Source: a bacterium
Lineage (GTDB): Bacteria; Zhuqueibacterota; Zhuqueibacteria; Residuimicrobiales; Krinioviventaceae
Length of the DNA stretch: 64,000 nt
NCBI GenBank assembly: GCA_029561455.1
Contig: JAKQIY010000057.1
Location: 124,001 to 188,000, forward strand
Direction: 5' to 3'
The notes under the pieces were generated by a model, which was given only the letters and a program-made list of their open reading frames with translations, made no database searches and had not been told where the DNA came from. The position numbers and the translations under genes were made by a program. Of this stretch, positions 1-15,590 are shown one piece after another; position 1 is the first letter of the stretch; each line of letters begins with the position of its first letter.

Positions 1-237
1 AGCATCTATCGCCAGCCGGAATGCTTCCGTACAATCAGATATTCCATCTCCAGTTGCGCCAAAAGAGGTAAGAAGAAAATCCTGTTGCGGGAACGTCACC
101 GGCTTGATCTGTTCAAGTAACAGTTCTGCCTGACGCCAATCTGATTTGGGGTTATTACATGATACTAACAAAATAAAAACAACAAGGCCTGCATAATATA
201 AAATCAGCCGGTTCTTTATATTTAAATCCTTATGCAT
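1..237 (-). CDS. GH28-like (polygalacturonase / pectate-lyase superfamily) lipoprotein, N-terminal part only
   Basis: Partial gene running off the left edge; 79 N-terminal codons are visible. The start is ATG at 237 with GAGGACC just upstream. A hydrophobic stretch at about residues 11-24 ends in a lipobox (LLVSC), so the protein is probably a lipoprotein. The segment FGATGDGISDCTEAFRLAID at about residues 58-77 is the classic N-terminal motif of GH28 polygalacturonases and related right-handed beta-helix proteins. Activity cannot be assigned because the catalytic repeats lie outside the window. It lies on the same strand as a second beta-helix protein at 723-2408, which suggests a pectin or uronate-related locus. 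Family call is confident at superfamily level; the GH28 label is an inference. Confidence 0.75.
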   Translation of the reverse strand, partial: MHKDLNIKNRLILYYAGLVVFILLVSCNNPKSDWRQAELLLEQIKPVTFPQQDFLLTSFGATGDGISDCTEAFRLAIDA

Positions 238-722
238 CAAGGTCCTCATATCCATATTAAATTTATCATTGTCATCTGTGCCGTAGCGTTAGTGATCGAC
301 ATGATCATTGCAGAATAATAAATCCACATTTCTCACAATTTTCAACAACTTCCTGATTCACATCAGGGTATAGAGTTTGAACTTTTTCTGTCAACTTGAT
401 CAAACAACTTTAAACACATTAATTTCAGATCATTAACTTTCAGTTCCGTTTAGAGAATAAACAAAAAATACTACATTAAACCAGATTAGTCATTAATAAA
501 AACCAAATTCTTTTATGTTAATAGTTTCCCCTTAGGGGGATAAAGTAACTTTTTGCAATTAATAAAGCTGACCGGTTATCAGGCCGGCCAGCTTCTTTTG
601 TGCTTACCGATAACGGGAGAATCTTTTAATTTCAGAATCAAGTAGCTTTCGGATATTTTTATCCCTCTATACTACTTATCCTATGAAATTGTAAAGGAAC
701 GATCATAGTTAATAAAATATCG
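238..722. other. Intergenic region between two beta-helix genes
   Basis: AT-rich, with no convincing ORF. It should hold the promoter of the GH28-like gene (minus strand) and contains one hairpin at 565-594, listed separately. No other feature is seen. Confidence 0.5.
565..594 (-). terminator. Probable terminator of the beta-helix gene 723-2408
   Basis: Inverted repeat with 11-nt arms (AAGCTGaCCGG / CCGGcCAGCTT, one mismatch) and a short loop. Read on the minus strand it is followed by TTTATTAATT. It lies about 130 nt beyond the stop codon at 723. Confidence 0.5.
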
Positions 723-2408
723 TTATTTCATCAATAACATTTTTTTGGACATAACCGACTGGTTATCAACCAGCAGTTGATAAAAATACAGACCGGAAGA
801 CAATGCTTTACCGGAAAGGTCAGTAGCCGTCCAGCTTACCTCATATTTTCCAGCGGCTTGTTGTTTATTATCCACCAGTTTTGCAACCATCTGGCCGAGT
901 GAATTATAGACAACCAGGGAAATCCGTGCAGTTTTAGCCACATCATAGGTAATACTTGTGGACGGATTGAACGGATTGGGATAATTTTGCGCCAGAGAAA
1001 AATCGGTTACCACTACGCCGGGTTTATAAGTAATGCCGGTCAAATAGGTTTCCCATTCCGTTTTCTTGGCCGGGAACCAGTTCAAATCGCCTGCCGGGAA
1101 TCCGCCGGTAGCACCGGTATAGGCAGCGAGGGTGGTTGCATAACTGCAATCCAGAGTATCGGCAAAATATTGCCAGGGTTTGCGATCAAAATCATGCAAG
1201 GCCGGATTAAAAAGAGGAGTGGGGGTATTTTTAGTCTTGTTGCCGCCATTCGGGTCGCGATACCATTCCGCCATATTAACCATGGAGACAGGTCGTTTTG
1301 CTACTTCAATACTTTCTTTTATAAAAGCCAGTACTGAATCGGCGCCCAAGCGGCTATTGATATGCCAGGTTAAAGCAGGGCCTTCACCAAGCACACCTTC
1401 AGCGGCATGTGCATCGTAAAAAGCCTGAACTTCCGGGGATACGCTGTAATAATTGCCGGAAATCTTCCAATCAGTTGAATCATTGGGTACTGACATGATC
1501 CAACTCATTCTGCCAAGTCCGTTACGGGAATCAATTTCACCCTGTTCTTCAAATTCCGATTGACGAACCTTGTCCGTATCGGCGCCGGCAATAAAAGTAT
1601 CAATAAACAGGTTATTGGTAATAATTCCTTTTTCACCCATCCAGCCCAAAGCAATAGTACCATGGTAACCCAGAGAATTGATAGCAGTATTATGATCGTA
1701 CAGCAGATAATTAATTCCCGCTACACTGGCGCGATGACGTATAATACGGTCATGAAAGTTGACAAATGTGTTGTTGACGAAAATTGCTGAATCGCAGGAG
1801 GTATTGCGATAATCGATCACTTTACCTGCACCAAGGTTGGAAAGCTGCAAATCGCCCATGTTGGCAAAAATACAGTTAGTGATCCTGGTTACCAGAACCG
1901 CCTGTTCCAAGCGGATATGTTCGCCGCGTGATTGGGTCAAAATACAACCGTCAATGATCAGTTTAAAGCCGGCAGCGCGGGAACGAATAAACCGGGTTGG
2001 ATTATTGACATTTTCACCCGGCTGACTTTCGATATAACCGACAAGGATAAGATCTTTTAAATAAACATCTTCACCCATTTCAAAAAATATACTTGGAAAG
2101 GTAGTCGTTGTACTATTGGCTATACCATAGATAACCGGTTTTTGTCCATCGCCATCCTGGGCTTTAATTCTGAGTTTATAGCCGGTATTGGTCAGGGTTG
2201 CATCAATAAAATATATTCCATTTCTTTCCAGAACATAAACACGTTCCGGGTCTGCAACGGTAATTGCATCATTATCAATAACCTGGTTGATATAGGAAAA
2301 TGCTGTTCCACTGCTGGCAGGAATTACCAGTTCGCCGGCCATACTAAAACTTGAAGCTAGCAACAAGATGAATAAAACAACACTACCTGTTAATATCCCT
2401 TTAAACAT
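723..2408 (-). CDS. Secreted right-handed beta-helix (pectate-lyase-like) protein with C-terminal sorting domain
   Basis: 561 aa. A signal peptide (about residues 1-24, ending SMA-GE) follows a strong AAGGAGGT ribosome site. Residues about 50-330 show short beta-strand repeats with Asn-rich turns (for example 'ITNCIFANMG', 'FVNNTFVNF', 'ITNNLFIDT'), typical of parallel beta-helix polysaccharide lyases and DUF4957/DUF5123-type proteins. The last ~87 residues begin 'NYPNPFNPSTS' and end 'KKMLLMK', the FlgD-like / Por-secretion C-terminal module, so the protein is predicted to be exported and surface-anchored or released. No catalytic residue could be assigned with confidence. Together with the GH28-like gene downstream on the same strand and the TonB receptor upstream it suggests acidic-polysaccharide breakdown, but the substrate is unknown. 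Confidence 0.75.
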   Translation of the reverse strand: MFKGILTGSVVLFILLLASSFSMAGELVIPASSGTAFSYINQVIDNDAITVADPERVYVLERNGIYFIDATLTNTGYKLRIKAQDGDGQKPVIYGIANSTTTTFPSIFFEMGEDVYLKDLILVGYIESQPGENVNNPTRFIRSRAAGFKLIIDGCILTQSRGEHIRLEQAVLVTRITNCIFANMGDLQLSNLGAGKVIDYRNTSCDSAIFVNNTFVNFHDRIIRHRASVAGINYLLYDHNTAINSLGYHGTIALGWMGEKGIITNNLFIDTFIAGADTDKVRQSEFEEQGEIDSRNGLGRMSWIMSVPNDSTDWKISGNYYSVSPEVQAFYDAHAAEGVLGEGPALTWHINSRLGADSVLAFIKESIEVAKRPVSMVNMAEWYRDPNGGNKTKNTPTPLFNPALHDFDRKPWQYFADTLDCSYATTLAAYTGATGGFPAGDLNWFPAKKTEWETYLTGITYKPGVVVTDFSLAQNYPNPFNPSTSITYDVAKTARISLVVYNSLGQMVAKLVDNKQQAAGKYEVSWTATDLSGKALSSGLYFYQLLVDNQSVMSKKMLLMK

Positions 2409-2568: not shown

Positions 2569-5500
2569 TTATAATGTTACTCTTAAACCAAGCTCGGCAG
2601 AAAGGCCATATTTTTCACTCTCGTTCAACAAATGCCAGCCAACAACCCGATTGCGTATTGAAGTCCCTTCTTCCGTATTGGTCAGGTTGTTTAAATTCAG
2701 TAATAATGCTATATTTTTAGTAATATTCTGCTTTAGCGCCAAATCCAGCCGGGTAAATCCATCTACTACATTATCGCTTCTGCTATCGGTTGAAAAACTA
2801 CTGTTGTATTCACCCTGATAGAACAGGGACAACCTGGCTGAAAAACCGCCGATATCATAACCCAGGGCAACATTACCAAAAAATTCCGGCTGCCCTTCCA
2901 ATTTTTGCTTCTTGTCCTCAATTCTATGCACTGTAGTCGGGATCGGGAATGGAAAGGTCGGAGAAATTACATTGATCACCGTGTCATTACTTGAAGGAAT
3001 CCAGGTCTCGGATTCAATAAAAGCCATATTATAACTCAAGACAATATTTTTAAACAGCCCAGGTAAAAACAACAGGTTTGCCTGATGTTCAATCTCTATA
3101 CCTTTCACGATCGTTGCTTTACTGGAATTAATTGGAAAGGTCAGGTTATAATCAGTAGTAAACGGGCTCTTGAGATTAATACCCAAACTATCCAGGGTTT
3201 TTTGTCCTTTTATTGGCAGCCCATTGATGATATGATACATATCATCAATATCTTTATAAAATGCGGACACAGAAAACAGGCCGATTTTATCATTAAATAA
3301 AGATGTATTGATCTCAAAATTCCAGGCTTTGGCAGCTTTGAGGTCCGGGTTGCCGACATATAAGCTGTTGCCGGAATAGAAAAAGCTTTGTGCGCGGGTA
3401 ACCACGCTTGCCAACCTGTAATTGAAATCCGGCCGGGCCAGCGCTTTATAGGCGGCAAACCGTACGTTCATGATGTTTAGTGGCCGGATTGTGAGATGAA
3501 AATTGGGCAACCACACAGTTTCATTGTGCGAAGCGGTAGTATCTTTAATCACACCTTTGGGAACAGGAAAACCGGACAGGGTCACCGGTGAAAAACGGGA
3601 ATCATAATCATTATTCTCATTCTCCATGCGCAGACCGGTGATCAATGTTGCTTTTTGCCCCCAATTCAACGTATTCATTACATAAGCTGAAGATATACGT
3701 TCGTTAATGTCATAAAAAAGGGCATCAGGTTCCAGGTTTTTTTCATATTCCGGATTTTTGCCAGTAGCATCGGAATAACCGTAACGATTCAAGCTCCACC
3801 ATTCACGAACAGCATCACGATTAAAAAGCGGGTACAGATCATACTTGTCATAAACATCCCGGTGTACCGGGTTGGCATCCAGGAAATTGGTCATCAGCAC
3901 CAGATTACCAACCATTTGCAAATCAGCAAAGCGGGTTCCGGTAAAATCTTTGGGTATAACGGCGCCATTATCATTAACATACTGGGCAAATTTTTCATTA
4001 TAATATGGGGATAATAATTCACTACGTTCCCGATCCCGCACCCTGTCCCTATACTTGCCGCCGATCTTGAATTCACCGGCAAAGAGTTTACCGAAATTAT
4101 AGGAACGGGCAATATTGAGATAGGCGGCTTTTTCAGTATCATTATTTTCTTCGCCGCGGAAATAAGCGGTATAAAGATTGGCGCTGGCGAAATTGTTCAA
4201 AGCATACTGAATAATATTCTCAGGATCGCCTTTTAAAATATCAGCGGGTACAGCCCGCATACCCGATAAAGGATTACCTAATTTATCGGTGGTGGAAGGT
4301 TCAAGGAAATTCATTTCATAATCAAAAGGATAATTCGCCCTGGAATTGCTATAAGACAAACCCCAGGTCGTTTGCAGCCCGAACAGGTAATTTTCACCAT
4401 TAATGGCGTTGGTCATTGCATTGATCTGCTGTTCACGATCTCTGGCCGTATAATACAACTCTTCACCGGTGGTGGGATAATTTCTCTCAAATTCGATGAA
4501 ATCCCTTTGGGTTTGGTTATAAACATTATTTATTCGGATCGAGCCGCCATCCGGAGTATTATAATCAAGGAGCACACTGTACCCATTGCGGTCTCTCACC
4601 TCATCAGTATAATTGAGTGTAAAATTAGTAATTTCATAATTATAACCACTATCCAGACCGCGTAAATTATAATCCAGGTCAATATTTTCCTTGCTGCGAT
4701 CGCGTTTTTCAATGTTGCCGCTGACCTGAATGCCAAGTTTATCATTGAAAAAACGTTCTCCATAGCGGACACGAAAATCGTATTGATCATAACTGTCGGC
4801 AAGTTTATTATAAGCGCCTTTGCTCTCTATACGGATGAGGCGTTCGTATGGCGCTTTTTTAGTTACCAGGTTAACACTGCCGGCAATTGCATCTGCATCC
4901 TTGTCAGGTGTGAGGGCTTTGTAAAGTTCAATACCCGCCAGGGAACCCTGGGAAATCGTACTCAAATCAACACCACGGGCATCGGCGTCTGTTGGCGCCA
5001 TTCGCACACCATCAATTGTAATTGTGGAATATTGTGAGCTGAGGCCTCTTAAAACAACCCGGTTAGCTTCACCACCGGAGCGCTGCAGGGACACACCAGG
5101 TAATCGGCCAATGGCTTCTGCGGCATTGGCGTCAGGTAATTCCTGGATTTTCTCTTCGGAAATAATATTTACGATAGTATTGGAAGTAACTTGCTGATTT
5201 ATGGCGCGCATTTGCCCTTCAGCCTGTGCAGTCACCATAACAATTTCCCCTTCGATAACCTCATAGAACAATTTGAAATTTTGTTCTATCGCACGGTTAG
5301 GTAATACCTTGACCTCTGCGGTATCCGGCTTATAACCAATAAACGATACAATAATCTTATAAGTACCGGCCGGTATACGAGCGATCTGATATTCACCTTC
5401 CAGATTAGTTGCTGCGCCGAGAGAAGTACCGGTTATAATAATATTAGCCCCCGGCAGTGTTTCACCAGTTGCAGCTTCCGATACAACTCCCTTTATTTGA

Positions 5501-5577
5501 CCATTTTGTGCAAATAGCAAAGGTGCATTGATACACACCAGGAGGAATAGAATTATAATAAAGGATGGCTTGGACAT
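2569..5577 (-). CDS. TonB-dependent outer-membrane receptor with N-terminal carboxypeptidase-regulatory-like domain
   Basis: 1002 aa with signal peptide (residues 1-23, ending LLFA-Q) and a GGAG ribosome site. Residues about 25-110 form a CarboxypepD_reg-like beta-sandwich ('GQIKGVVSEAATGETLPGAN'). Residues about 120-240 form the plug ('RLPGVSLQRSGGEANRVVLR', 'ITIDGVRM'). The rest is a 22-strand-type barrel with alternating aromatic strands. The plug wording resembles the TonB-Xanth-Caul subgroup (TIGR01782) associated with carbohydrate uptake. It is not a clear SusC, and no SusD-like lipoprotein is next to it. Energy would come from TonB/ExbBD encoded elsewhere. A divergent membrane regulator lies across a 752-nt control region with repeats, so regulated expression is likely. 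Ligand unknown; an oligosaccharide is the best guess. Confidence 0.9.
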   Translation of the reverse strand: MSKPSFIIILFLLVCINAPLLFAQNGQIKGVVSEAATGETLPGANIIITGTSLGAATNLEGEYQIARIPAGTYKIIVSFIGYKPDTAEVKVLPNRAIEQNFKLFYEVIEGEIVMVTAQAEGQMRAINQQVTSNTIVNIISEEKIQELPDANAAEAIGRLPGVSLQRSGGEANRVVLRGLSSQYSTITIDGVRMAPTDADARGVDLSTISQGSLAGIELYKALTPDKDADAIAGSVNLVTKKAPYERLIRIESKGAYNKLADSYDQYDFRVRYGERFFNDKLGIQVSGNIEKRDRSKENIDLDYNLRGLDSGYNYEITNFTLNYTDEVRDRNGYSVLLDYNTPDGGSIRINNVYNQTQRDFIEFERNYPTTGEELYYTARDREQQINAMTNAINGENYLFGLQTTWGLSYSNSRANYPFDYEMNFLEPSTTDKLGNPLSGMRAVPADILKGDPENIIQYALNNFASANLYTAYFRGEENNDTEKAAYLNIARSYNFGKLFAGEFKIGGKYRDRVRDRERSELLSPYYNEKFAQYVNDNGAVIPKDFTGTRFADLQMVGNLVLMTNFLDANPVHRDVYDKYDLYPLFNRDAVREWWSLNRYGYSDATGKNPEYEKNLEPDALFYDINERISSAYVMNTLNWGQKATLITGLRMENENNDYDSRFSPVTLSGFPVPKGVIKDTTASHNETVWLPNFHLTIRPLNIMNVRFAAYKALARPDFNYRLASVVTRAQSFFYSGNSLYVGNPDLKAAKAWNFEINTSLFNDKIGLFSVSAFYKDIDDMYHIINGLPIKGQKTLDSLGINLKSPFTTDYNLTFPINSSKATIVKGIEIEHQANLLFLPGLFKNIVLSYNMAFIESETWIPSSNDTVINVISPTFPFPIPTTVHRIEDKKQKLEGQPEFFGNVALGYDIGGFSARLSLFYQGEYNSSFSTDSRSDNVVDGFTRLDLALKQNITKNIALLLNLNNLTNTEEGTSIRNRVVGWHLLNESEKYGLSAELGLRVTL

Positions 5578-6007
5578 AACTTTACTCCATATTAATTGGT
5601 TAATACAATCGAGGTATGGATAGTACTTTCGCCGATTCCGGCAAGAAATTACTTGTAATTATGTATGTTTATAATTATTGAATCGGTATTAACAAAGAGC
5701 AAATTATTCAAGATTGTTTTTAAACTAAATACAGTAAAAACAGCAATAAATTATTTTAAATAATAATTGCATAATTTCTTTAAAAATTATATCTTTAATT
5801 ATATGTAGCAGTACAAATTATTTATTTTCCAAAGCCTTGACCAGCGTTGATGTCGCGCAACTCATCATAAAAGGAAAGATTAAACTTGTCAAACTAACAT
5901 TTTTAATACTTAAAAAATAAAATGACAAATATCTCCGGTCTTGTAATGATGAAAATTCTATTATGATAATCACATACCAATTAACAACCTTTATTCGTCT
6001 TGTTAAA

Positions 6008-6037
6008 GTGAATAACTGTGAATAACTGTGATTAACA
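6008..6037 (+). repeat. Three tandem 10-bp direct repeats, possible operator
   Basis: Three consecutive 10-nt units: GTGAATAACT at 6008 and again at 6018, then GTGATTAACA at 6028. The period equals one helical turn, as in binding sites of OmpR/PhoB-fold winged-helix regulators. The divergent gene to the right encodes such a domain, so this is a candidate operator (inference). Confidence 0.5.
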
Positions 6038-6199
6038 AATAAACCAACCCTATGGTCATTATAAAATAATTACAAAACCTCTTAAAATAATAATTTTCAA
6101 TAACATAATTGTTCCTGCAATAACGATCTGATAACTAAACTTGGCTCTTACTAATGAAATGTTCAATCAATAATATCTGTTATACACACCTGAAAACTT

Positions 6200-6219
6200 G
6201 TGAAAAAATGTGAATAACA
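6200..6219 (+). repeat. Second 10-bp direct-repeat pair, possible operator
   Basis: GTGAAAAAAT at 6200 followed directly by GTGAATAACA at 6210, matching the unit seen at 6008-6037 with the same 10-bp period. It ends 110 nt before the regulator's start, a position suited to autoregulation. Confidence 0.45.
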
Positions 6220-6329
6220 TGTTTTATAACCCGGAAGAAGAAATTTTTCCATTTAATACCTGAAAATAGTTGCTGCCGGAAAGCGTTAACGGGTGTATTC
6301 CCATGATGGGATAAAACCTGATTAACAAA

Positions 6330-7580
6330 ATGCGATCACAGAATAACCAAAGATTTCTTATGATCAATGAAGCCCTGCAAAAAAAATTGGTACAAAAAAT
6401 ACTGGATAGCAAGGAATTTACCGGTTCAAAAATTTACCAAAATTATCTCACCTATCTGGTAGAAGCAACCAATCGGGGGGAAAATCCCAAAGAGACAACA
6501 ATCGCAATTGAAGTATTTGGTAAAGACTCTAATTTCAATCCCGGTGAAGATACAATCGTGCGCTCGCACATGTATTCGCTGCGAAAAAAACTGGATAGTT
6601 ATTATCTTACCGAAGGTAAAGACGACAAGTACGTATTAAAGATACCCAAAGGTCATTATCAAACCCATTTTGTACCGGCAGGTGGAGATAAAATATTATC
6701 ACCCTTGTTGTTTTCGCGTTTTGCCAACAGATACAGTTTTCTTTTAATAGCGTTGCTGTTTGCGATTATTATATTTCAGTGGCTGCACATTCACAATAAT
6801 GAGAACAAACTTAAAAATTACCAGGTTGTTGAAAAAAACGATCCAATCTGGAAAGACTATTTGCAATCCGACCTGCCGGTACTCATTGTTCTTGGCAATC
6901 ATTTCTTTTTTAATGTTTATAATGACGTATTTAAAGATACTGTCAGCATCCGTAATCCTCGCGTCAATTCGGCGGAAGATTTTATGTCGCTTTACCCCAA
7001 TTTAACTTTGACACCAGCGCCGGAACCATATTTCCCCTATCATAGCGTCTGGAGTATGGCATCGGTTTTGTCGGTTTTCAATTCTGTGCATAAAACACCT
7101 ATTTTAAGAAAATCATCCGATATTTTTCCACAAATCCTTAATGAATATAATATCATTTTTCTGGGTAGTATTAAAACCTTGTACAGACTGAAACATACCC
7201 TGCACAAGTCACATTTTAGTTATGAAATTTCTCCTCACAAGGTAATATATACTCTTCCTGACAGTAATATAGTAAAGACGTATGAAACATCCCGTCATTC
7301 CCAGGGGCCCAATGAAGACCTTGTTCTGGCGCTCAAATTACCGGGCCCCGACAAAAATTCAATAATGATCATTGCTTCTTATCATTCCCTGGGGGCGCCG
7401 GAAATAGTGAATTATCTTATCAATCCGGTTACCAGAAAAATCATTGAGGACAAATTTATTGAAAAGTACAAAAGTATGCCGCAATATTTTGAAATTTTGT
7501 TCCGGGTTACCGGTATTGATAAAACAGCATACAGTACAGAAATCCTCGTCTATAACAAACTTGCAGCGGATAACGATTAA
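6330..7580 (+). CDS. Membrane-anchored ToxR/CadC-like regulator: N-terminal winged-helix domain, one TM helix, periplasmic sensor domain
   Basis: 416 aa. Residues about 20-115 contain the pattern seen in winged-helix domains of many Acidobacteria-type regulators: 'AIEVFGKDSNFNPGEDTIVR', then 'LRKKLDSYY', then 'LKIPKGHYQ'. Residues about 131-152 form a single hydrophobic helix ('YSFLLIALLFAIIIFQWLHI'). The remaining ~260 residues, presumably periplasmic, match no family I recognise. This layout is that of one-component ToxR/CadC regulators that bind DNA while staying in the inner membrane. The start is uncertain: ATG 6330 and ATG 6360 both lack a strong ribosome site. Transcribed away from the TonB receptor, it is a natural candidate for controlling it. 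Function inferred. Confidence 0.65.
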   Translation: MRSQNNQRFLMINEALQKKLVQKILDSKEFTGSKIYQNYLTYLVEATNRGENPKETTIAIEVFGKDSNFNPGEDTIVRSHMYSLRKKLDSYYLTEGKDDKYVLKIPKGHYQTHFVPAGGDKILSPLLFSRFANRYSFLLIALLFAIIIFQWLHIHNNENKLKNYQVVEKNDPIWKDYLQSDLPVLIVLGNHFFFNVYNDVFKDTVSIRNPRVNSAEDFMSLYPNLTLTPAPEPYFPYHSVWSMASVLSVFNSVHKTPILRKSSDIFPQILNEYNIIFLGSIKTLYRLKHTLHKSHFSYEISPHKVIYTLPDSNIVKTYETSRHSQGPNEDLVLALKLPGPDKNSIMIIASYHSLGAPEIVNYLINPVTRKIIEDKFIEKYKSMPQYFEILFRVTGIDKTAYSTEILVYNKLAADND

Positions 7581-7675: not shown

Positions 7676-9514
7676 TTATTTAAATTTTATAGTGGTTTTA
7701 GTACCGTTATTACTTTCTCTGGTTAATTCCCCCTTAATTTGCTGGGTCAATACGTTGATAAGTGTTAAACCCAGAGTATCTTTGGGACTCTTATTTTCAT
7801 CCATGCCCACACCATTATCTTCCACACAAAGCATAAACTCTTTATTTTTCTTTGTAAAAGTTATTATTAACTTGCCGTTCGCTCCAGTGGGAAATGCATG
7901 TTTTAAAGAATTAGATACGAGTTCATTTAAAATCAATCCGCAGGGAATTGCTTTATCGACACTTAAATGCACATCATCTATAGAACTGGCAAATTCAATA
8001 TTTTCACCGGTGTTATAAGAAAAAAACAGTTCCCGTATCACATTATCGGCATATTGCTTGAAATTTACATCAGTGAAATCATTTGTTTTATATAATCGTT
8101 CATGGACCAACGCCATGGAACGAATACGGTTTTTAGTACTCTTGATGGTTTGTATCAAAGCTTCATCTTTACTCTTGTTTTCCTGCAGGGAGAGCAAACT
8201 TTGCACTATTTGCAAATTGTTCTTGACGCGATGATGGATTTCCTTCATTAATATTTCTTTTTCTTTCAACGAGGCAAGAATTTTTCTTTCCACCTCTTTC
8301 CTGTCGGTAATATCGGTTACTATACATAACGCCGCTTTGGTAAGATGCGAATTCGATCTAAGCGGATTGATCCGGGCTTCATACCAGCGCTCCTGCCCCA
8401 TTATTACAGACATAGACTGGAACAATAACGGTTTTTCGGCGTCAATTGTGGTAAGAATATTTTGCATTTGTAAATCGGCAATCTCTTTTGGAAACAGTTG
8501 CCACATAGTTTTGCCGATAAAATCCTCAGGTTTACCATGAAAAGAAAAGGCCGCGTCGGTGTTCATAAATAAAAATACTCCATCCTGATTGACCGTAAAG
8601 ATCGGTTGACCGGCGCCCTCTACCAGGGCACGATAAGTATTTTCGCTCTCGATCAAAGCATCATTAATACGCTTTTTTTCGGTAATATCGTTTAGAAAAT
8701 TCAGGGTTGCCGGCCGGCCTTCCCAGGTTATTAATACAGCTTTTATTTCCACCCAGACAATTTCATGCTTTTTATTTAAAATCCGAAAGCTATAATTACT
8801 TTCAATTTGCTCTCCAGCCAGTCTTTTCTGGTGCCGTTCTGCTATATGTGGCAGGTCATCAGGATATACAAGTTTATCTATCGGCATATTGAGGAATTCA
8901 TCATCAAAATAACCGGTAAGCTTTGAAGCAATGGGGTTGAATAGTTTAATAACATTATCCTGTATGACAACTATGGCTTCTATCGCATTGTCAACGACAC
9001 TCCGGTATTTGGCTTCACTTTGGATCAATGCTTGTTCAGCATTGACAATATCGGTAATATCCCTGGTGATAGAAAGAATACATGGAACATCATGAATCGA
9101 TATGATAGTGGCGCTCATCAAACCGACTATAATGCGCCCCTCCCTGGTACGGAATTGAGCCTTTAAATTTAAAATTTTACCGTCTTTTTTTAATCCTTCC
9201 ACCAGCTTTTTTCTGTCGTCGGGATTAACCCAAATATTACATTCCAGGGAGGATTTACCAATGATCATGTCGCGTGTATATCCGGTAATATCAGTAAACC
9301 CCTGGTTTATATCGATATACACGCCATCCGACATCCGGTTAATATTAATAGAATCGGCGCTCAGGTGAAAAGACTTGCGGAACCGTTCTTCACTGATACA
9401 CAATTGCTCATAAATTTCCTGGCTGTTTTTATTGATTTGCTCAAGCTCGATTATTCTTTTGTTGGCAATTTCAAGTTCTTGAAGTAAATCATTTCTGGTC
9501 TTGGTTTTATTCAT
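7676..9514 (-). CDS. Soluble multi-PAS sensor histidine kinase (HisKA_2 type)
   Basis: 612 aa, no signal peptide or membrane helix, so cytoplasmic. A short coiled coil (about 10-40) is followed by three PAS/PAC units (about 40-155, 165-280, 290-405). Next comes a HisKA_2 dimerisation region with 'EIHHRVKNNLQ' (phospho-acceptor His427 or His428) and a HATPase_c domain with N-box Asn530/Asn535 and 'DNGVGM' at 566-571. It would autophosphorylate on ATP and pass phosphate to a response regulator, but none is adjacent. No Shine-Dalgarno is visible before the ATG; a TATACT-like element lies just upstream, so a very short leader is possible. The PAS ligand (redox, small molecule) cannot be told from sequence. 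Confidence 0.9.
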   Translation of the reverse strand: MNKTKTRNDLLQELEIANKRIIELEQINKNSQEIYEQLCISEERFRKSFHLSADSININRMSDGVYIDINQGFTDITGYTRDMIIGKSSLECNIWVNPDDRKKLVEGLKKDGKILNLKAQFRTREGRIIVGLMSATIISIHDVPCILSITRDITDIVNAEQALIQSEAKYRSVVDNAIEAIVVIQDNVIKLFNPIASKLTGYFDDEFLNMPIDKLVYPDDLPHIAERHQKRLAGEQIESNYSFRILNKKHEIVWVEIKAVLITWEGRPATLNFLNDITEKKRINDALIESENTYRALVEGAGQPIFTVNQDGVFLFMNTDAAFSFHGKPEDFIGKTMWQLFPKEIADLQMQNILTTIDAEKPLLFQSMSVIMGQERWYEARINPLRSNSHLTKAALCIVTDITDRKEVERKILASLKEKEILMKEIHHRVKNNLQIVQSLLSLQENKSKDEALIQTIKSTKNRIRSMALVHERLYKTNDFTDVNFKQYADNVIRELFFSYNTGENIEFASSIDDVHLSVDKAIPCGLILNELVSNSLKHAFPTGANGKLIITFTKKNKEFMLCVEDNGVGMDENKSPKDTLGLTLINVLTQQIKGELTRESNNGTKTTIKFK

Positions 9515-10166: not shown

Positions 10167-12539
10167 ATGAAAAGACAACTTGGTTCTCGTTTTGCAGGTT
10201 TATTGTTTATAGCAATATTTAATATGGCTTGTACAAACGCACTGGGCGTTACCCTGGTTGATTATGGCGCTTCTGCTGCATCTACCACTTTTGGGTTAAC
10301 GGGTTGGAATACCGTGATAAAAAGTACTAACATTGGCTATACTTCTCTGGGAAACGGTGGATTACTCTTAACCACCGAAGCTGAAGAATATAACGAATAT
10401 AGAGGCATCAGCGGTGTCGCCAGGGCGTTTACAGTCGTGGAAAGAATCGTTGTTACCTGGTATAATAATTCGGATGAATCAGTTCGATTTACATCAAGAA
10501 TTAGTTTTACCGATAACAATGAGCCGGATCCTGAAGCAGTAAATAATAAATGGTATACAATGCGGAGTTACAACGACTACCGGGAGACCTATACGGAAAT
10601 AAATTCCTACTCAACCGGTAGAACCGTATTTAATATTACCGATTCGGGAGTACATAAAACGAATGCCTCTTATTCGCTCGTTAACATTAACCTGGCAATA
10701 GAGTGGGGTTCTACATATCAAAAACAGTTTTTAATTTGCGAAAAGATCGAGTTATTGAGCGACGCCGATATAATTGCCCCGGCCCAGCCGACAGGTCTTG
10801 CCGCCAATGTGCTATCAGATTCAAAAATACACCTTGCCTGGAATCAACCGACCGATAATGTCCAAACTGTAGAATATCTTATCTATATGAATGGCGCAAT
10901 TGAGGGTTATTCCCGTACCAGCGATCACACCTGCGTACTTCTTGAACCGGGTAGCAATTACACTTTTGCGGTATCAGCGCTCGATGCTGCCGGCAATGAA
11001 AGCATTCAATCTGCTTCTGTCCAGGCGGCTACCCAGGAGTTTAAAGGCCCTCATAGTGTAATCAACCCGTCAGGATTTGAATACCTCGGTGCCATAGCTT
11101 TGCCGGAAGATTTTAGCTGGGGCGGAGAAGCGATTGCCTATAATTGTGATGGAGGACAAACCGGCAGCTTGTTTGTTACCAACGTTAATCAGTATGAAAA
11201 TGGCCTGGTAGGAGAAGTTATTCTTCCGGAGCCGGTCATTTCAACACAGAAAAATGTAGATGATTTAAATGTAGCGGCAATGCTTCATCAACCTGTAAAC
11301 ATCAGACCGGCAAATATTAATAGCTGGGATTTTGTAGATATATGGAGAACCGGGTTGGAATATATTCCTGAGGAAGGGAGACTGTACAGCTCATGGAGTA
11401 TACACTATACCGTCACCGAAGGGAAAAATGCCTCGATCAGTTGCTGCAATGCCGCCGACCTATCGGCTGGTACCAAATATGGCGCCTGGTATGTCGGTAA
11501 TGCCGGCGAGCCGCCGCTCGACGCCATGATGAACGACTGGCTGTTCTCCCTACCCAAATCATGGGCCGACGCGCATTGCTCCGGCAGAAACATCGTTACG
11601 GGTCGATGCCGGGACGGCGGCTTAAGTGGACTGGGGCCAACCCTGTACGCTATTGCACCGGTCGGAGCAACTCCGCCGGCAGCGAATAGCGAATTGGCAT
11701 TTACGACTCTGCTTGAATATGGTCCGGGTACGGCAACAGACAATTATCACTTTCCCAACTCTATCGATGGTTATAAACTGAATGATGACTGGCGGGAAGC
11801 AATATGGCTAAATGCAGGAACTCAAACTGCGGTAGCCATTGCCGGGAAAAAGGGCTTGGGACATAACTGGTATGGGTACAATGGCGAATGGATGCAGTTT
11901 AATTGGGTCATTGCCGATGTGCCGCATCCCGAAGCCGAGTTTTATACTACAGATCCAAACGGCAAGGGTTGGCGGTCGCATAATTATCAACCCATGATCC
12001 TGTTTTTCGATCCCACCGACCTGGCCAAGGTGGGCGACGGCTTGATGAATGCCTGGGAACCACAGCCTTATGCAGCGTTACGAATTCCGAAAAATTTATT
12101 TTTTGGTTCTTTTGCAGAGATATTTTCCGCAGCTTTCGATTTTGAAAAAAGCATATTGTATATTGCTGAAATGGTAGCGGAATTAGATGGAAGAATTGTA
12201 CTGCACGCCTGGAAGGTTAATCCGGTAACGACTTTTATAGGTTCACAAGAACATAATCCGGGCGAATTCACTCTTTATCAGAACTATCCAAATCCGTTCA
12301 ATTCGGAAACGTTAATCCAATATCGCTTATCATCGCCAAGCCAGATTTCGCTTATTGTTTACAACTCTGCCGGACAGCAAGTCCGAAAACTTTTATCAAG
12401 CCGTGAAAATACCGGATTACATCATATTCAATGGGATGGGAAAGACAATGCAGGTAATGATGTGCCTTCAGGCTTGTATTTCTCTAGTTTGCGAACTGAT
12501 AAATTTGAACAAACTCAAAAAATGCTGTTACTAAAATAA
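10167..12539 (+). CDS. Large secreted protein of unknown function with FN3 domain and C-terminal sorting domain
   Basis: 790 aa. An N-terminal hydrophobic signal (about 1-26) is followed by a beta-rich region (27-205) that may be carbohydrate-binding. A fibronectin type III domain lies at about 208-292 ('PTGLAANVLSDSKIHLAWNQ'). The ~400-residue core (about 300-700) I do not recognise. It is rich in Trp, Tyr and Gly and contains paired cysteines ('SISCCNAADLS') and Trp-rich stretches suggestive of a propeller or carbohydrate-active fold. The last ~85 residues ('YQNYPNPFNSETLI' ... 'QKMLLLK') are the Por-secretion-type tail. The ribosome site is weak. It stands alone between a broken ORF and a tRNA gene. 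No enzymatic claim is made. Confidence 0.7.
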   Translation: MKRQLGSRFAGLLFIAIFNMACTNALGVTLVDYGASAASTTFGLTGWNTVIKSTNIGYTSLGNGGLLLTTEAEEYNEYRGISGVARAFTVVERIVVTWYNNSDESVRFTSRISFTDNNEPDPEAVNNKWYTMRSYNDYRETYTEINSYSTGRTVFNITDSGVHKTNASYSLVNINLAIEWGSTYQKQFLICEKIELLSDADIIAPAQPTGLAANVLSDSKIHLAWNQPTDNVQTVEYLIYMNGAIEGYSRTSDHTCVLLEPGSNYTFAVSALDAAGNESIQSASVQAATQEFKGPHSVINPSGFEYLGAIALPEDFSWGGEAIAYNCDGGQTGSLFVTNVNQYENGLVGEVILPEPVISTQKNVDDLNVAAMLHQPVNIRPANINSWDFVDIWRTGLEYIPEEGRLYSSWSIHYTVTEGKNASISCCNAADLSAGTKYGAWYVGNAGEPPLDAMMNDWLFSLPKSWADAHCSGRNIVTGRCRDGGLSGLGPTLYAIAPVGATPPAANSELAFTTLLEYGPGTATDNYHFPNSIDGYKLNDDWREAIWLNAGTQTAVAIAGKKGLGHNWYGYNGEWMQFNWVIADVPHPEAEFYTTDPNGKGWRSHNYQPMILFFDPTDLAKVGDGLMNAWEPQPYAALRIPKNLFFGSFAEIFSAAFDFEKSILYIAEMVAELDGRIVLHAWKVNPVTTFIGSQEHNPGEFTLYQNYPNPFNSETLIQYRLSSPSQISLIVYNSAGQQVRKLLSSRENTGLHHIQWDGKDNAGNDVPSGLYFSSLRTDKFEQTQKMLLLK

Positions 12540-12597
12540 GGAAAAATTTATATTCGGAACTCCAGGAAAAGAAATTTCGTTACGTTGCCCCTGCTAT

Positions 12598-12628
12598 AAA
12601 AAAACAAGCCCCTTTACTTGGGGCTTGA
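12598..12628 (-). terminator. Rho-independent terminator of tRNA-Arg
   Basis: Perfect 8-bp stem (CAAGCCCC / GGGGCTTG) with a 7-nt loop. On the minus strand it is followed by seven T residues, immediately beyond the tRNA 3' end. Confidence 0.85.
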
Positions 12629-12632
12629 TCAG

Positions 12633-12706
12633 TACGCCCGCCGGGATTTGAACCCGGAACCTTTGGCTCCGGAGGCCAATGCTCTATCCAGTTGAGCTAC
12701 GGGCGC
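12633..12706 (-). tRNA. tRNA-Arg (anticodon CCG)
   Basis: 74-nt cloverleaf on the minus strand. The acceptor stem is GCGCCCG with CGGGCGT (G1-U72 wobble). The D-arm starts GCTC, the anticodon stem is TTGGC/GCCAA with loop CTCCGGA (anticodon CCG, reads CGG), and the T-arm is CCGGG-TTCAAAT-CCCGG. The discriminator is A and the CCA end is not encoded. It has its own promoter and terminator. Confidence 0.95.
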
Positions 12707-12716
12707 ATAACCAGAT

Positions 12717-12745
12717 AATATAACATTTTATCTTTTAATATGCAA
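12717..12745 (-). promoter_or_regulatory. Sigma-70-type promoter of tRNA-Arg
   Basis: On the minus strand, TTGCAT (12745-12740) is followed by 17 nt and then TATATT (12722-12717), ending 10 nt before the tRNA 5' base. Spacing and sequence fit a housekeeping promoter. Confidence 0.65.
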
Positions 12746-13085
12746 GAATTTTAGTCTGATGTATATGAACAAGAGTTCTTTCATCAAAAAAGCAGCTGAA
12801 TATTTTTATCCTGCTGCTCCTTTTACTTTTCTTTTTTGTAAAAAATTGTATACAAGCGGAACCCGGCAAATTTAATAGCGTTATTATATATATCCACATG
12901 AAATTATAATCTTTGCATTACACTATGAATTTTGATTTATTAACAAGAAAAACTGACTTGCTTCTTGAATTGCTTATTAAGTTATATAACAATTTGTCCG
13001 ATTATCATACCTAGATATAATTGAAATTTTAAATCTCCTGAAAATGTTAGAATAATATTATTTCATTAAATTTCGGATAATTATA
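12746..13085. other. AT-rich intergenic region
   Basis: No ORF, repeat or hairpin of note between the tRNA promoter and the small ORF at 13086. Confidence 0.4.
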
Positions 13086-13277
13086 ATGAAACCAATTACC
13101 AGAGAACAAGCCGATCACCTGGTTAAAATTCATACTGTGCAAAATACCGCAGTCAAACAAACCGGTAAAGGTTTGCAAATTCTCATCACCCTCGCAAACA
13201 ACAATAATATCACTGTTGTCTACAATTCCTCCGACCACAAGGAATTATATTATATTACAGAGGAAGCAAATGCCTGA
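13086..13277 (+). CDS. Small hypothetical protein (63 aa)
   Basis: 63 aa, soluble, mixed charge, with alternating hydrophobic residues ('GLQILITLANNNNITVVYNS') that would suit a small alpha+beta fold. No clear ribosome site precedes the ATG, and an open frame exists on the other strand (13047-13238). The composition of this frame is more protein-like and a bidirectional hairpin terminator follows at 13421. Not recognised as any family; it may be real but is not certain. Confidence 0.45.
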   Translation: MKPITREQADHLVKIHTVQNTAVKQTGKGLQILITLANNNNITVVYNSSDHKELYYITEEANA

Positions 13278-13420
13278 TGTAGAATGACCATGTTACCATA
13301 ATAAATTATTTTGTTTACCCCCCCGGCTTTCCTTCTCTTTAATCACTAAACTATCAACTTAAAAAAAATACATTAACGTTCAAATATGTTCTAAATTGAC
13401 AATTGTAATGTAAATACAAT

Positions 13421-13463
13421 AAAAGCGCCTGATATTGATAAAGATTATCAATCAGGCGCTTTT
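13421..13463. terminator. Bidirectional terminator hairpin
   Basis: Perfect 13-nt arms (AAAAGCGCCTGAT / ATCAGGCGCTTTT) with further pairing inside, flanked by A-run and T-run on either side. It lies between the convergent small ORF (+) and the GH42 gene (-), so it can serve both. Confidence 0.8.
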
Positions 13464-13505
13464 ACATTGGTGTTAATCCTGTGATGCTTTCTGAACAGAT
13501 ACTAT

Positions 13506-15590
13506 TTAATCCGCCAGGATTATTGCCACATCCCAGGGTTTCAGCGTTATGCTTGAATTTTTTTCGATCCGGGTCTGCTGCAACAATTCCTTTCCTTCCG
13601 TGTATGGGTAAGTAAAAGTATTCTCCCTGTCCGTAAAATTGAAATAATAACGCAGAGTTTTACCCTGAGCATTGACGCCTTTTTTCACAATAATTCCCAG
13701 CGGCAAATCCTGATCGGGCCCGGTGAGGTTAGCCGAAGCAAGTATGTCTTTCATTACTGCCCGCTGCAATTCATCGGCAAGCAGTGCGCCCTGGTAATAG
13801 ACTACACCCTTGCCATAATTATTGCGTGTTATCGCCGGGAATTGGCCCAAAAATGGGTGGTCGTAATAGGCAAGAGGCTGCGCCGTTTCCGCTATCAACA
13901 ATTCAGCCCATACGGAAACTCTATTCTTGTCGCCAAGCTGCCAGGGATCACCTTGCAACGGCAATGGCTCACGCAGTGTAGAAAACTCCTGGTAAGAAAT
14001 ACCGGCAGCCTTGCGCAAAGGCCCCGGCGCCATTTCCCACCGGACTGTGGAATATTCATTACAGAAACCGCTTTTAAAAGATAACAGCAGCCGTCCGCCT
14101 TTATCAACAAAGGCAGTTAATTTATTTAGTACTTCATCTGAGGCAATATACAGCGGTGGTACAAGGATCAGGTCATAATCCGAAAAATTATCGCTTTGTG
14201 GATAAACAATATCGGTTTCCACATTCAATTGGTACAAAACGCTATAAAATTGCCGCATAATAGTTTGATAATCCACCTGGCGGTCGAAGGGCATATATTT
14301 CAGGCCATGATACGAATCCAGGCTGAATAAAATTGCCACTTTATTGGTCTTTTTCAGGTTCACCAGGTTTGCGCCGATGCGCTGTAATTCAGCGCCGGTA
14401 CGACTCATTTCCCGGTATATCCGGTTGGGCTGTAAATCGTGGGACAACACCCCTTTCCAATACGTTTCCTGACCATAATGCAGCGAGTGCCAGTGCCAAT
14501 ATAATACACAATTGGCGCCGCTGGCCAGATGCGTATAGACGTTCTGCCTTAACTGACCATCGTAAGGCGGAAACTGGCCATCCGAACTCCAGCCGATGGT
14601 TTGGGCATTGGTTTCGGTCACCAGGTAATTATTGCGCTTCAGGGAACGGTTAATATCACCGGACCAGGCAATGTCCTCACCGTTCTGTCCATCCTGCACA
14701 GGTGTATAGGGATTGACCGCAACCACATCGAGCGTTTGGGCAATGTCGTACTGGTTAACATCGGTGCGTAAACCGCCGACAAAATTATGGCAAATGAATT
14801 GGTCGGGACGCTTGTATTCTCTGACAATACCTGCCTGCCAGGCAAGAAAATCAGTAGTTATTTTATGCTGAAAGCGTTCCCAATCCAGTTTGTAGCCGGG
14901 ATTGACCATCCCGTCGCGTGGAGCTAGTTCTGCAAAGCTATTTATGGTTTGCCCCCAGTAATTCAATCCCCATATTTGATTGATTTTCTCTACTGTCCCG
15001 TATTTTTCTTTCAGGTAATCTAAAAAATTAAGATAATTATCACGGCCATTAAAGCCGGTATGAGTTTCGTTATCTACCTGGTAACCGATAATTGCCGGGT
15101 GGTCTTTGTAATGATTAACAATTTGCCGGATAACCCGCTCACAATAGAACCGGAAAGCCGGATTGCTTAGATTCGCTTCCTGGCGCATACCATAAGGCGT
15201 CGGTTCTCCATTCACAGATAATTTACGATAGATTTCGGGGTGTTTGTGATACATCCAGGGCGGCACTGAATAGGTAGGGGTACCCAGGATTACCTTTATC
15301 CCAGCCTTGTGCAGCCGGTCGATCACCCGATCCATCCAGGCAAACTCGAATTCTCCGTCACGGGGTTCCCAAAGACTCCAGGTTGATTCCCCCAAACGAA
15401 CCACCGTAATCCCGGCCTTTTGCATTAACTGCACGTCCTGTTCCAGGCGTTCATAAGGCATATACTCATGATAATAAGAGGCGCCATACAGAATAGTATT
15501 TAAATTATAATTTTCACCGGCATGGCTGCTCCAAACCCCGATTCCGAGAATCAGTGCAATAATAGCAATACTATGTTTATTTAAAATCAT
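13506..15590 (-). CDS. Exported GH42 beta-galactosidase
   Basis: 694 aa with signal peptide (about 1-24, cut after SSHA) and GGAG ribosome site. Residues about 30-395 form the GH42 TIM barrel. The acid/base is Glu175 in 'QVDNE' and the likely nucleophile is Glu326 in 'YLVTETNAQ'. A glutamine-amidotransferase-like trimerisation domain follows (about 410-610), then a small C-terminal beta domain. It should release terminal beta-galactose (some GH42 members also accept alpha-L-arabinosides). The signal peptide is notable, because many GH42 enzymes are cytoplasmic, and places this one in the periplasm or outside. It is the second gene of an operon, 26 nt after the GH97 gene. Family assignment is firm; exact glycoside preference is not. 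Confidence 0.92.
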   Translation of the reverse strand: MILNKHSIAIIALILGIGVWSSHAGENYNLNTILYGASYYHEYMPYERLEQDVQLMQKAGITVVRLGESTWSLWEPRDGEFEFAWMDRVIDRLHKAGIKVILGTPTYSVPPWMYHKHPEIYRKLSVNGEPTPYGMRQEANLSNPAFRFYCERVIRQIVNHYKDHPAIIGYQVDNETHTGFNGRDNYLNFLDYLKEKYGTVEKINQIWGLNYWGQTINSFAELAPRDGMVNPGYKLDWERFQHKITTDFLAWQAGIVREYKRPDQFICHNFVGGLRTDVNQYDIAQTLDVVAVNPYTPVQDGQNGEDIAWSGDINRSLKRNNYLVTETNAQTIGWSSDGQFPPYDGQLRQNVYTHLASGANCVLYWHWHSLHYGQETYWKGVLSHDLQPNRIYREMSRTGAELQRIGANLVNLKKTNKVAILFSLDSYHGLKYMPFDRQVDYQTIMRQFYSVLYQLNVETDIVYPQSDNFSDYDLILVPPLYIASDEVLNKLTAFVDKGGRLLLSFKSGFCNEYSTVRWEMAPGPLRKAAGISYQEFSTLREPLPLQGDPWQLGDKNRVSVWAELLIAETAQPLAYYDHPFLGQFPAITRNNYGKGVVYYQGALLADELQRAVMKDILASANLTGPDQDLPLGIIVKKGVNAQGKTLRYYFNFTDRENTFTYPYTEGKELLQQTRIEKNSSITLKPWDVAIILAD

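Follow-up and report, generated by a model that had tools for sequence, protein, structure and literature searches.

A predicted membrane-anchored winged-helix regulator and a directional 10-bp repeat array linked to it beside a TonB receptor and likely pectin operon

Transmembrane transcription regulators (TTRs), in which a DNA-binding domain and a membrane segment share one polypeptide, have been established as a general kind by a survey whose text, when searched, held no mention of TonB or Calditrichota (PMC10269533). The hallmark of ToxR-like DNA-binding domains is a five-stranded sheet made of four N-terminal strands and one C-terminal strand, and the ToxR box reads TNAAA-N5-TNAAA, with a 10-bp period (PMC8517210). 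The sites of CadC are arranged head-to-head (PMC5430869). The locus described here lies in a 64,000-nucleotide stretch of bacterial DNA (the window), where a gene at 6330–7580 (plus strand) is predicted to encode a membrane-anchored one-component regulator of 416 residues, and a TonB-dependent receptor gene is read divergently from it (2569–5577, minus strand), a layout already recognized in a first-pass annotation. As in ToxR and CadC, an N-terminal cytoplasmic winged helix of the OmpR type is predicted to be followed by a single membrane helix and a C-terminal periplasmic domain, which by predicted fold and hydropathy places the protein among the TTRs. Unlike in ToxR and CadC, a four-stranded β sheet is missing from the N-terminal part of the predicted DNA-binding domain, the match to the Pfam family Trans_reg_C stays below the curated cut-off (14.7 against 26.2 bits), the periplasmic domain has a predicted BcsB flavodoxin-like fold, and the putative operator has three units, with a TonB receptor and pectin genes as its likely targets. 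Because the hallmark sheet is absent from the prediction, we describe the regulator as working like, rather than being, a member of the ToxR family. The ToxR design, a DNA-binding domain held at the membrane, would then serve not only virulence and acid stress but also foraging for carbohydrates, with another fold as its sensor.

The TonB-receptor glycan loci of Bacteroidota are controlled by SusR, by hybrid two-component systems (HTCS) or by pairs of ECF sigma factors and FecR proteins. In contrast to all of these, the regulator has no histidine kinase, receiver, sigma or anti-sigma domain, profile searches having found none of them, nor a FecR domain, in its sequence. With the OmpR/PhoB response regulators PrrA, SaeR, RstA and RpaA it shares the winged-helix fold and, putatively, the recognition of direct repeats, and in class II promoters of the PhoB type the array stands next to the −35 element, as the present arrays are predicted to do in several relatives. 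It differs from these response regulators by its membrane anchor and by the lack of a receiver domain or a partner kinase.

The full-length AlphaFold2 model of the regulator, based on a 71-sequence alignment, has a mean pLDDT of 93. Residues 14–116 (6369–6677, plus strand), with pLDDT mostly above 95, are predicted to form the OmpR-type winged-helix domain that had been proposed from the sequence, so that the failure to fold in this way, named at the time as a ground for rejection, is not what the model indicates. This predicted structure matches PrrA (Z 8.0, 3.5 Å, 89 residues aligned; a Z near 8 is moderate), followed by SaeR (Z 7.3), RstA with DNA (7.3) and RpaA (6.7). The model is helical over residues 14–93, including a putative recognition helix at about residues 76–93, and continues into wing strands at 101–104 and 113–116. 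Trans_reg_C is matched at E ≤ 0.01 in 34 of 71 relatives. The single transmembrane helix, also part of the original proposal, is placed at residues 136–162 (6735–6815, plus strand) by both model and hydropathy, with a 19-residue hydropathy of 2.37, and values of at least 1.6 are found in 70 of the 71 homologues. Met11 (ATG at 6360) is near-invariant and most homologues start there; the true start may therefore be this ATG, 30 bases after the annotated one at 6330.

The periplasmic domain (residues 166–416; 6825–7577, plus strand) had been put forward for structure prediction, and when modelled alone it yielded a confident structure (pLDDT 93.9, pTM 0.91). Its predicted α/β fold is closest to the flavodoxin-like domain of BcsB (Z 12.8, 3.0 Å, 168 residues aligned), then to the N-terminal domain of GH67 (Z 9.8), GH84 (8.7), an S-layer anchoring domain (8.1) and GH115 (7.8), whereas unrelated structures score 6.5 and below. 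Identity to the BcsB, GH67, GH84 and GH115 domains amounts to 7–14%, a likeness of fold alone that carries no evidence of a shared function or ligand. A sequence search of solved structures with the regulator gave no significant match. The domain, at first described as unrecognized, thus has recognizable structural relatives.

All repeat units lie in the spacer between the two genes (5578–6329). Predicted operator site 1 (6007–6036, plus strand) consists of head-to-tail 10-bp units, AGTGAATAAC TGTGAATAAC TGTGATTAAC, with unit starts at 6008, 6018 and 6028 and the letters GTGAATAAC t GTGAATAAC t GTGATTAAC; on the minus strand it reads GTTAATCAC/GTTATTCAC three times, directed at the TonB receptor. 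The weaker predicted site 2 (6189–6218, plus strand; CCTGAAAACT TGTGAAAAAA TGTGAATAAC) has units at 6200 (GTGAAAAAA) and 6210 (GTGAATAAC) and a weaker one at 6190 (CTGAAAACT), which makes it a three-unit array as well. The first-pass annotation had the exact 10-bp period and both places right, but it missed the unit at 6190 and counted five units instead of six. At period 10 the site 1 triple has a self-match score of 25 out of 27, for which 5000 Markov shuffles of the spacer give p = 0.0002. When every period between 6 and 30 was allowed, 5 of 1000 shuffles got as far, and no other place in the 64-kb window scores 22 or more. A matrix of 31 columns, trained solely on the sites of other genomes with the window left out, gave its highest score in the window to 6007 (40.0 bits), followed by 6189 (20.5 bits); the next-best site, shifts of site 1 aside, reaches 2.3 bits. 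Site 2 precedes the annotated start of the regulator by 111 bp and may serve autoregulation of the regulator gene; no counterpart of it was seen at other orthologues.

The receptor (TIGR01782, 340.9 bits, over the cut-off) is the first gene of the divergent operon. It is of the TIGR01782 type and no SusD match occurs among the genes scanned beside it, in contrast to Sus-type polysaccharide utilization loci with their SusC–SusD gene pair. The second gene (723–2408, minus strand) encodes, according to profile matches, a 561-residue protein with a type IX secretion (T9SS) tail, and has positional counterparts in orthologous operons. It is followed by the 5′ part (1–255, minus strand) of a GH28 galacturonidase/polygalacturonase-like gene (Glyco_hydro_28, 3.5e-31) that extends beyond the window (from −1175 to 255) and resembles most the BT4155 galacturonidase model, where its 398 bits stay under the equivalog cut-off of 800. 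GH28 genes are also present at the orthologous loci L045, L047, L050 and L052, with a PelZ-like pectate lyase gene at L047. These nearby GH28 and pectate lyase genes point to pectin as the nutrient, and the gene content makes pectin, or its homogalacturonan part, the likely substrate. The whole genome has 37 matches to the TonB plug domain. Convergent to the regulator lies a PAS/HisKA_2 histidine kinase gene (7676–9514, minus strand) that shows no sign of membership in the conserved unit, and further to the right, at 10167–15590, the carbohydrate-rich neighborhood encodes a GH42 β-galactosidase and a secreted, type IX-tailed fn3 protein.

The distribution of the repeat was examined in the genome of origin and in related genomes. 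In the former (5.85 Mb), three-unit matches outside the locus have three mismatches and are at control level, and two-unit matches outside it are likewise at control level, with no convincing second copy; the best of the latter (at C43) was rejected as a site, being inside a pstC-like coding sequence. Regulator homologues occur in 37 of 194 related genomes, across which the three-unit pattern, scanned with up to three mismatches, has eight occurrences and the reversed control pattern none. The array is present in 7 of the 8 genomes with an orthologue of 57–100% identity and in 0 of 186 without one, a count that is partly dependent, the pattern having been derived in part from the counted loci. 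A repeat common apart from the regulator, which would have spoken against the initial reading, is thus not what is found, as the three-unit form is confined to orthologue-bearing genomes. The expectation that it would always sit by regulator homologues holds for seven of the eight copies; the eighth (L148), with three perfect units, is found 332 bp ahead of a different TonB receptor gene that has no adjoining regulator, and an arabinofuranosidase gene is nearby.

At the orthologous loci of the first set (L043–L052, 45–60% identity) the array was found in all ten, with the consensus GTGAAAAACn in triplicate; the consensus GTGAAAAACnGTGAAAAAC contains TGAAA-N5-TGAAA and so fits the direct repeat of the ToxR box at the sequence level. 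In the group of 45–49% identity (L050–L052) the array is shorter or weaker, and a TTTACT element resembling a −35 replaces the first unit. An independent test was provided by held-out orthologues, found later in contigs of KSB1, Calditrichaeota and Neomarinimicrobiota-labelled metagenome-assembled genomes (MAGs) and scanned with the first matrix: all seven intact ones have a site (p ≤ 0.007 each), always on the strand of the regulator. L175, whose alignment covers only residues 208 onward, was excluded from this upstream test. The array is thus kept at 17 orthologous loci, being shorter or weaker, two-unit or degenerate, in some of them. In the aligned sites the last two units carry 11.0 and 11.7 bits of information and the first 6.4, while beyond the units information is near background, the flanking bases not being kept in diverged genomes. 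At L045 and L047 the array stands by the regulator and GH28 or other genes replace the adjoining receptor, which indicates that it is the regulator, not the receptor, that the array accompanies. A scan of all upstream regions for periodic self-similarity only missed L046 and L050–L052, and most paralogues did not stand out in it; with some orthologues escaping it in this way, scans by matrix and by gapped words had to be used.

Two-unit matches extend the putative regulon within the orthologue-bearing genomes. One (L150) lies upstream of a TonB receptor operon that comprises the receptor, a T9SS-tailed protein, a GH28-like protein and a PelZ-like pectate lyase, another (L149) upstream of a gene for a DctP TRAP solute-binding protein, and three (L152, L153, L155) upstream of further TonB receptors, where the sites resemble the version found at paralogues. 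Matches L151, L154 and L156–L159, located in coding sequence, were treated as chance. At orthologues and all extra regulon sites the direction of the array is constant, with GTTTTTCAC toward the target gene. On the receptor side, TATAAT-like −10 hexamers peak 12 and 22 nt past the array, one helical turn apart, with a top value reached in 0 of 500 shuffles, and in three relatives TTTACT-N17-TATATT abuts the units. An array just upstream of a phased −10 or abutting a −35 suits an activator that acts at or just upstream of the −35 element. The geometry is less clear in the window, as its best σ70-like promoter toward the receptor (5892–5864, minus strand; TTGACA-N17-TATGAT, 11 of 12 positions, a consensus match only) lies about 115 bp from site 1 instead of abutting it as in several relatives. 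A variant motif, GTTAATTCACAGTTATTCACT, occurs upstream of TonB receptors without adjoining regulator at L152 (7198), L153 (7152) and L155 (557) and resembles the sites at paralogues L057, L059, L061 and L066; these sites apparently form a second regulon in the same genomes.

We consider it likely that a one-component regulator of ToxR architecture binds the array head-to-tail and probably activates the TonB receptor/pectin operon. That its DNA-binding end docks on the row of 10-base repeats is very probable. In this model, the directional three-unit repeat would be the operator, on which three, or at least two, cytoplasmic domains would sit head-to-tail on one face of the helix. The occupied array, just upstream of or overlapping the −35 element of the divergent promoter, would activate expression of the receptor and the pectin-degradation operon, and site 2 might mediate autoregulation. 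The periplasmic domain would respond, directly or via a partner, to pectin-derived material imported by the receptor, and sensing would change the oligomeric or DNA-binding state of the regulator without phosphorylation; oligomerization would be an equally plausible role. Activation rather than repression and the identity of the ligand are probable readings of the layout. The surface-sensing one-component nutrient circuit envisaged at the outset is thus supported by genomic linkage and predicted fold, except that sensing would take place in the periplasm and not at the cell surface.

Other explanations are less likely. An array overlapping the −35 element could block the polymerase, and repression of the receptor operon by the bound regulator until the ligand arrives is compatible with the layout; we regard it as unlikely, given that the arrays stand upstream of the predicted −10, which is phased 12 or 22 nt past the last unit, the arrangement to be expected if an activator adjoins the −35 or takes its place. 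It is distinctly unlikely that some other, unlinked factor, such as a pectin or galacturonate repressor, uses the array as its operator and has the membrane regulator among its targets. The sites upstream of receptor genes without adjoining regulator would fit such a factor, but from one genome to the next the array goes with the regulator orthologue, and related GTnAAnAAC repeats are also found upstream of divergent paralogues with different neighbors. LacI, GntR and IclR factors, moreover, usually use dyad sites, whereas head-to-tail 10-bp spacing suits an OmpR-type domain. The linkage could in principle also reflect another factor that always travels with the locus.

The adjoining, divergent arrangement of receptor and regulator genes might evoke FecA–FecR-like surface signalling, in which the N-terminal domain of the receptor would signal to the winged-helix protein as its FecR-like partner. 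This seems very improbable, as that receptor domain is a CarbopepD_reg_2 domain with no match to the STN domain of FecA, profile searches assign the regulator to no FecR or sigma-factor family, no FecR or sigma partners were matched, and some orthologues have no adjoining receptor. Slippage or composition noise unrelated to the neighboring genes is hardly credible: the match is short and the spacer around the arrays AT-rich, but the shuffles, the retention of the array in diverged genomes where its flanks are not kept, the two top ranks given by a matrix trained without the window, and the held-out orthologues all speak against it.

Activation by the membrane-anchored regulator, our preferred reading, can be set in the context of its paralogues. 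The genome of origin has one (G000:C73, 37% identity), likewise divergent from a TonB receptor gene. Among family members, 27 of 60 divergent genes encode a TonB plug domain, and others encode GH2, sulfatase or CBM9 proteins. The orthologue matrix finds sites at p ≤ 0.01 in 14 of 67 paralogue upstream regions, against 0.67 expected, the 67 including the three orthologues of 45–49% identity, L050–L052. Without supervision, the words TAAC-N7-TAAC and TAAC-N6-TAAC were recovered from 62 paralogue regions, the former in 20 (2.0 expected) and the latter in 12 (1.0 expected). Related words in paralogues are spaced both 10 and 11 bp and stand partly in dyads, so that we restrict the strict 10-bp rule to the orthologous group. 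Arrays with other units lie upstream of paralogues L077, L075 and L081, for example GTAATAACGGTTAATAACCGGTTATAAAC, and the differing units suggest that a code, readable from sequence, relates the recognition helix to the repeat it prefers. At residue 79, in the putative recognition helix, all 11 orthologues have Ser, whereas 45 of 60 paralogues have Val, which makes this position a candidate determinant of specificity.

The family has so far been found in KSB1/Calditrichota-related genomes, in some Ignavibacteria and in MAGs labelled Neomarinimicrobiota, uncultured groups in which little is known about the control of polymer uptake. No published description was found in the open-access literature, searched by the features of the family and for pectin regulation in KSB1. 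The recurrence of regulator and repeats together in related bacteria suggests that single-protein nutrient sensors of this sort form a family not yet described. More tentatively, with a chance that we place slightly below even, the regulator could be the founding example of an unrecognized transmembrane one-component family, combining a winged helix that lacks the sheet with a BcsB-like periplasmic domain. In such a family the periplasmic domain would sense imported fragments of glycans directly, and every paralogue would recognize a GTnAAnAAC array of its own at a TonB-receptor or glycan operon. With a predicted operator and a likely substrate assigned to regulators that have so far gone unannotated, such regulons would become readable from sequence. 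One genome has 14 matches to the family, some of them fragments, and at L073 a degraded regulator paralogue lies in pieces (13387–14602; G006:C2:601.9–603.1 kb) about 6 kb from an intact one.
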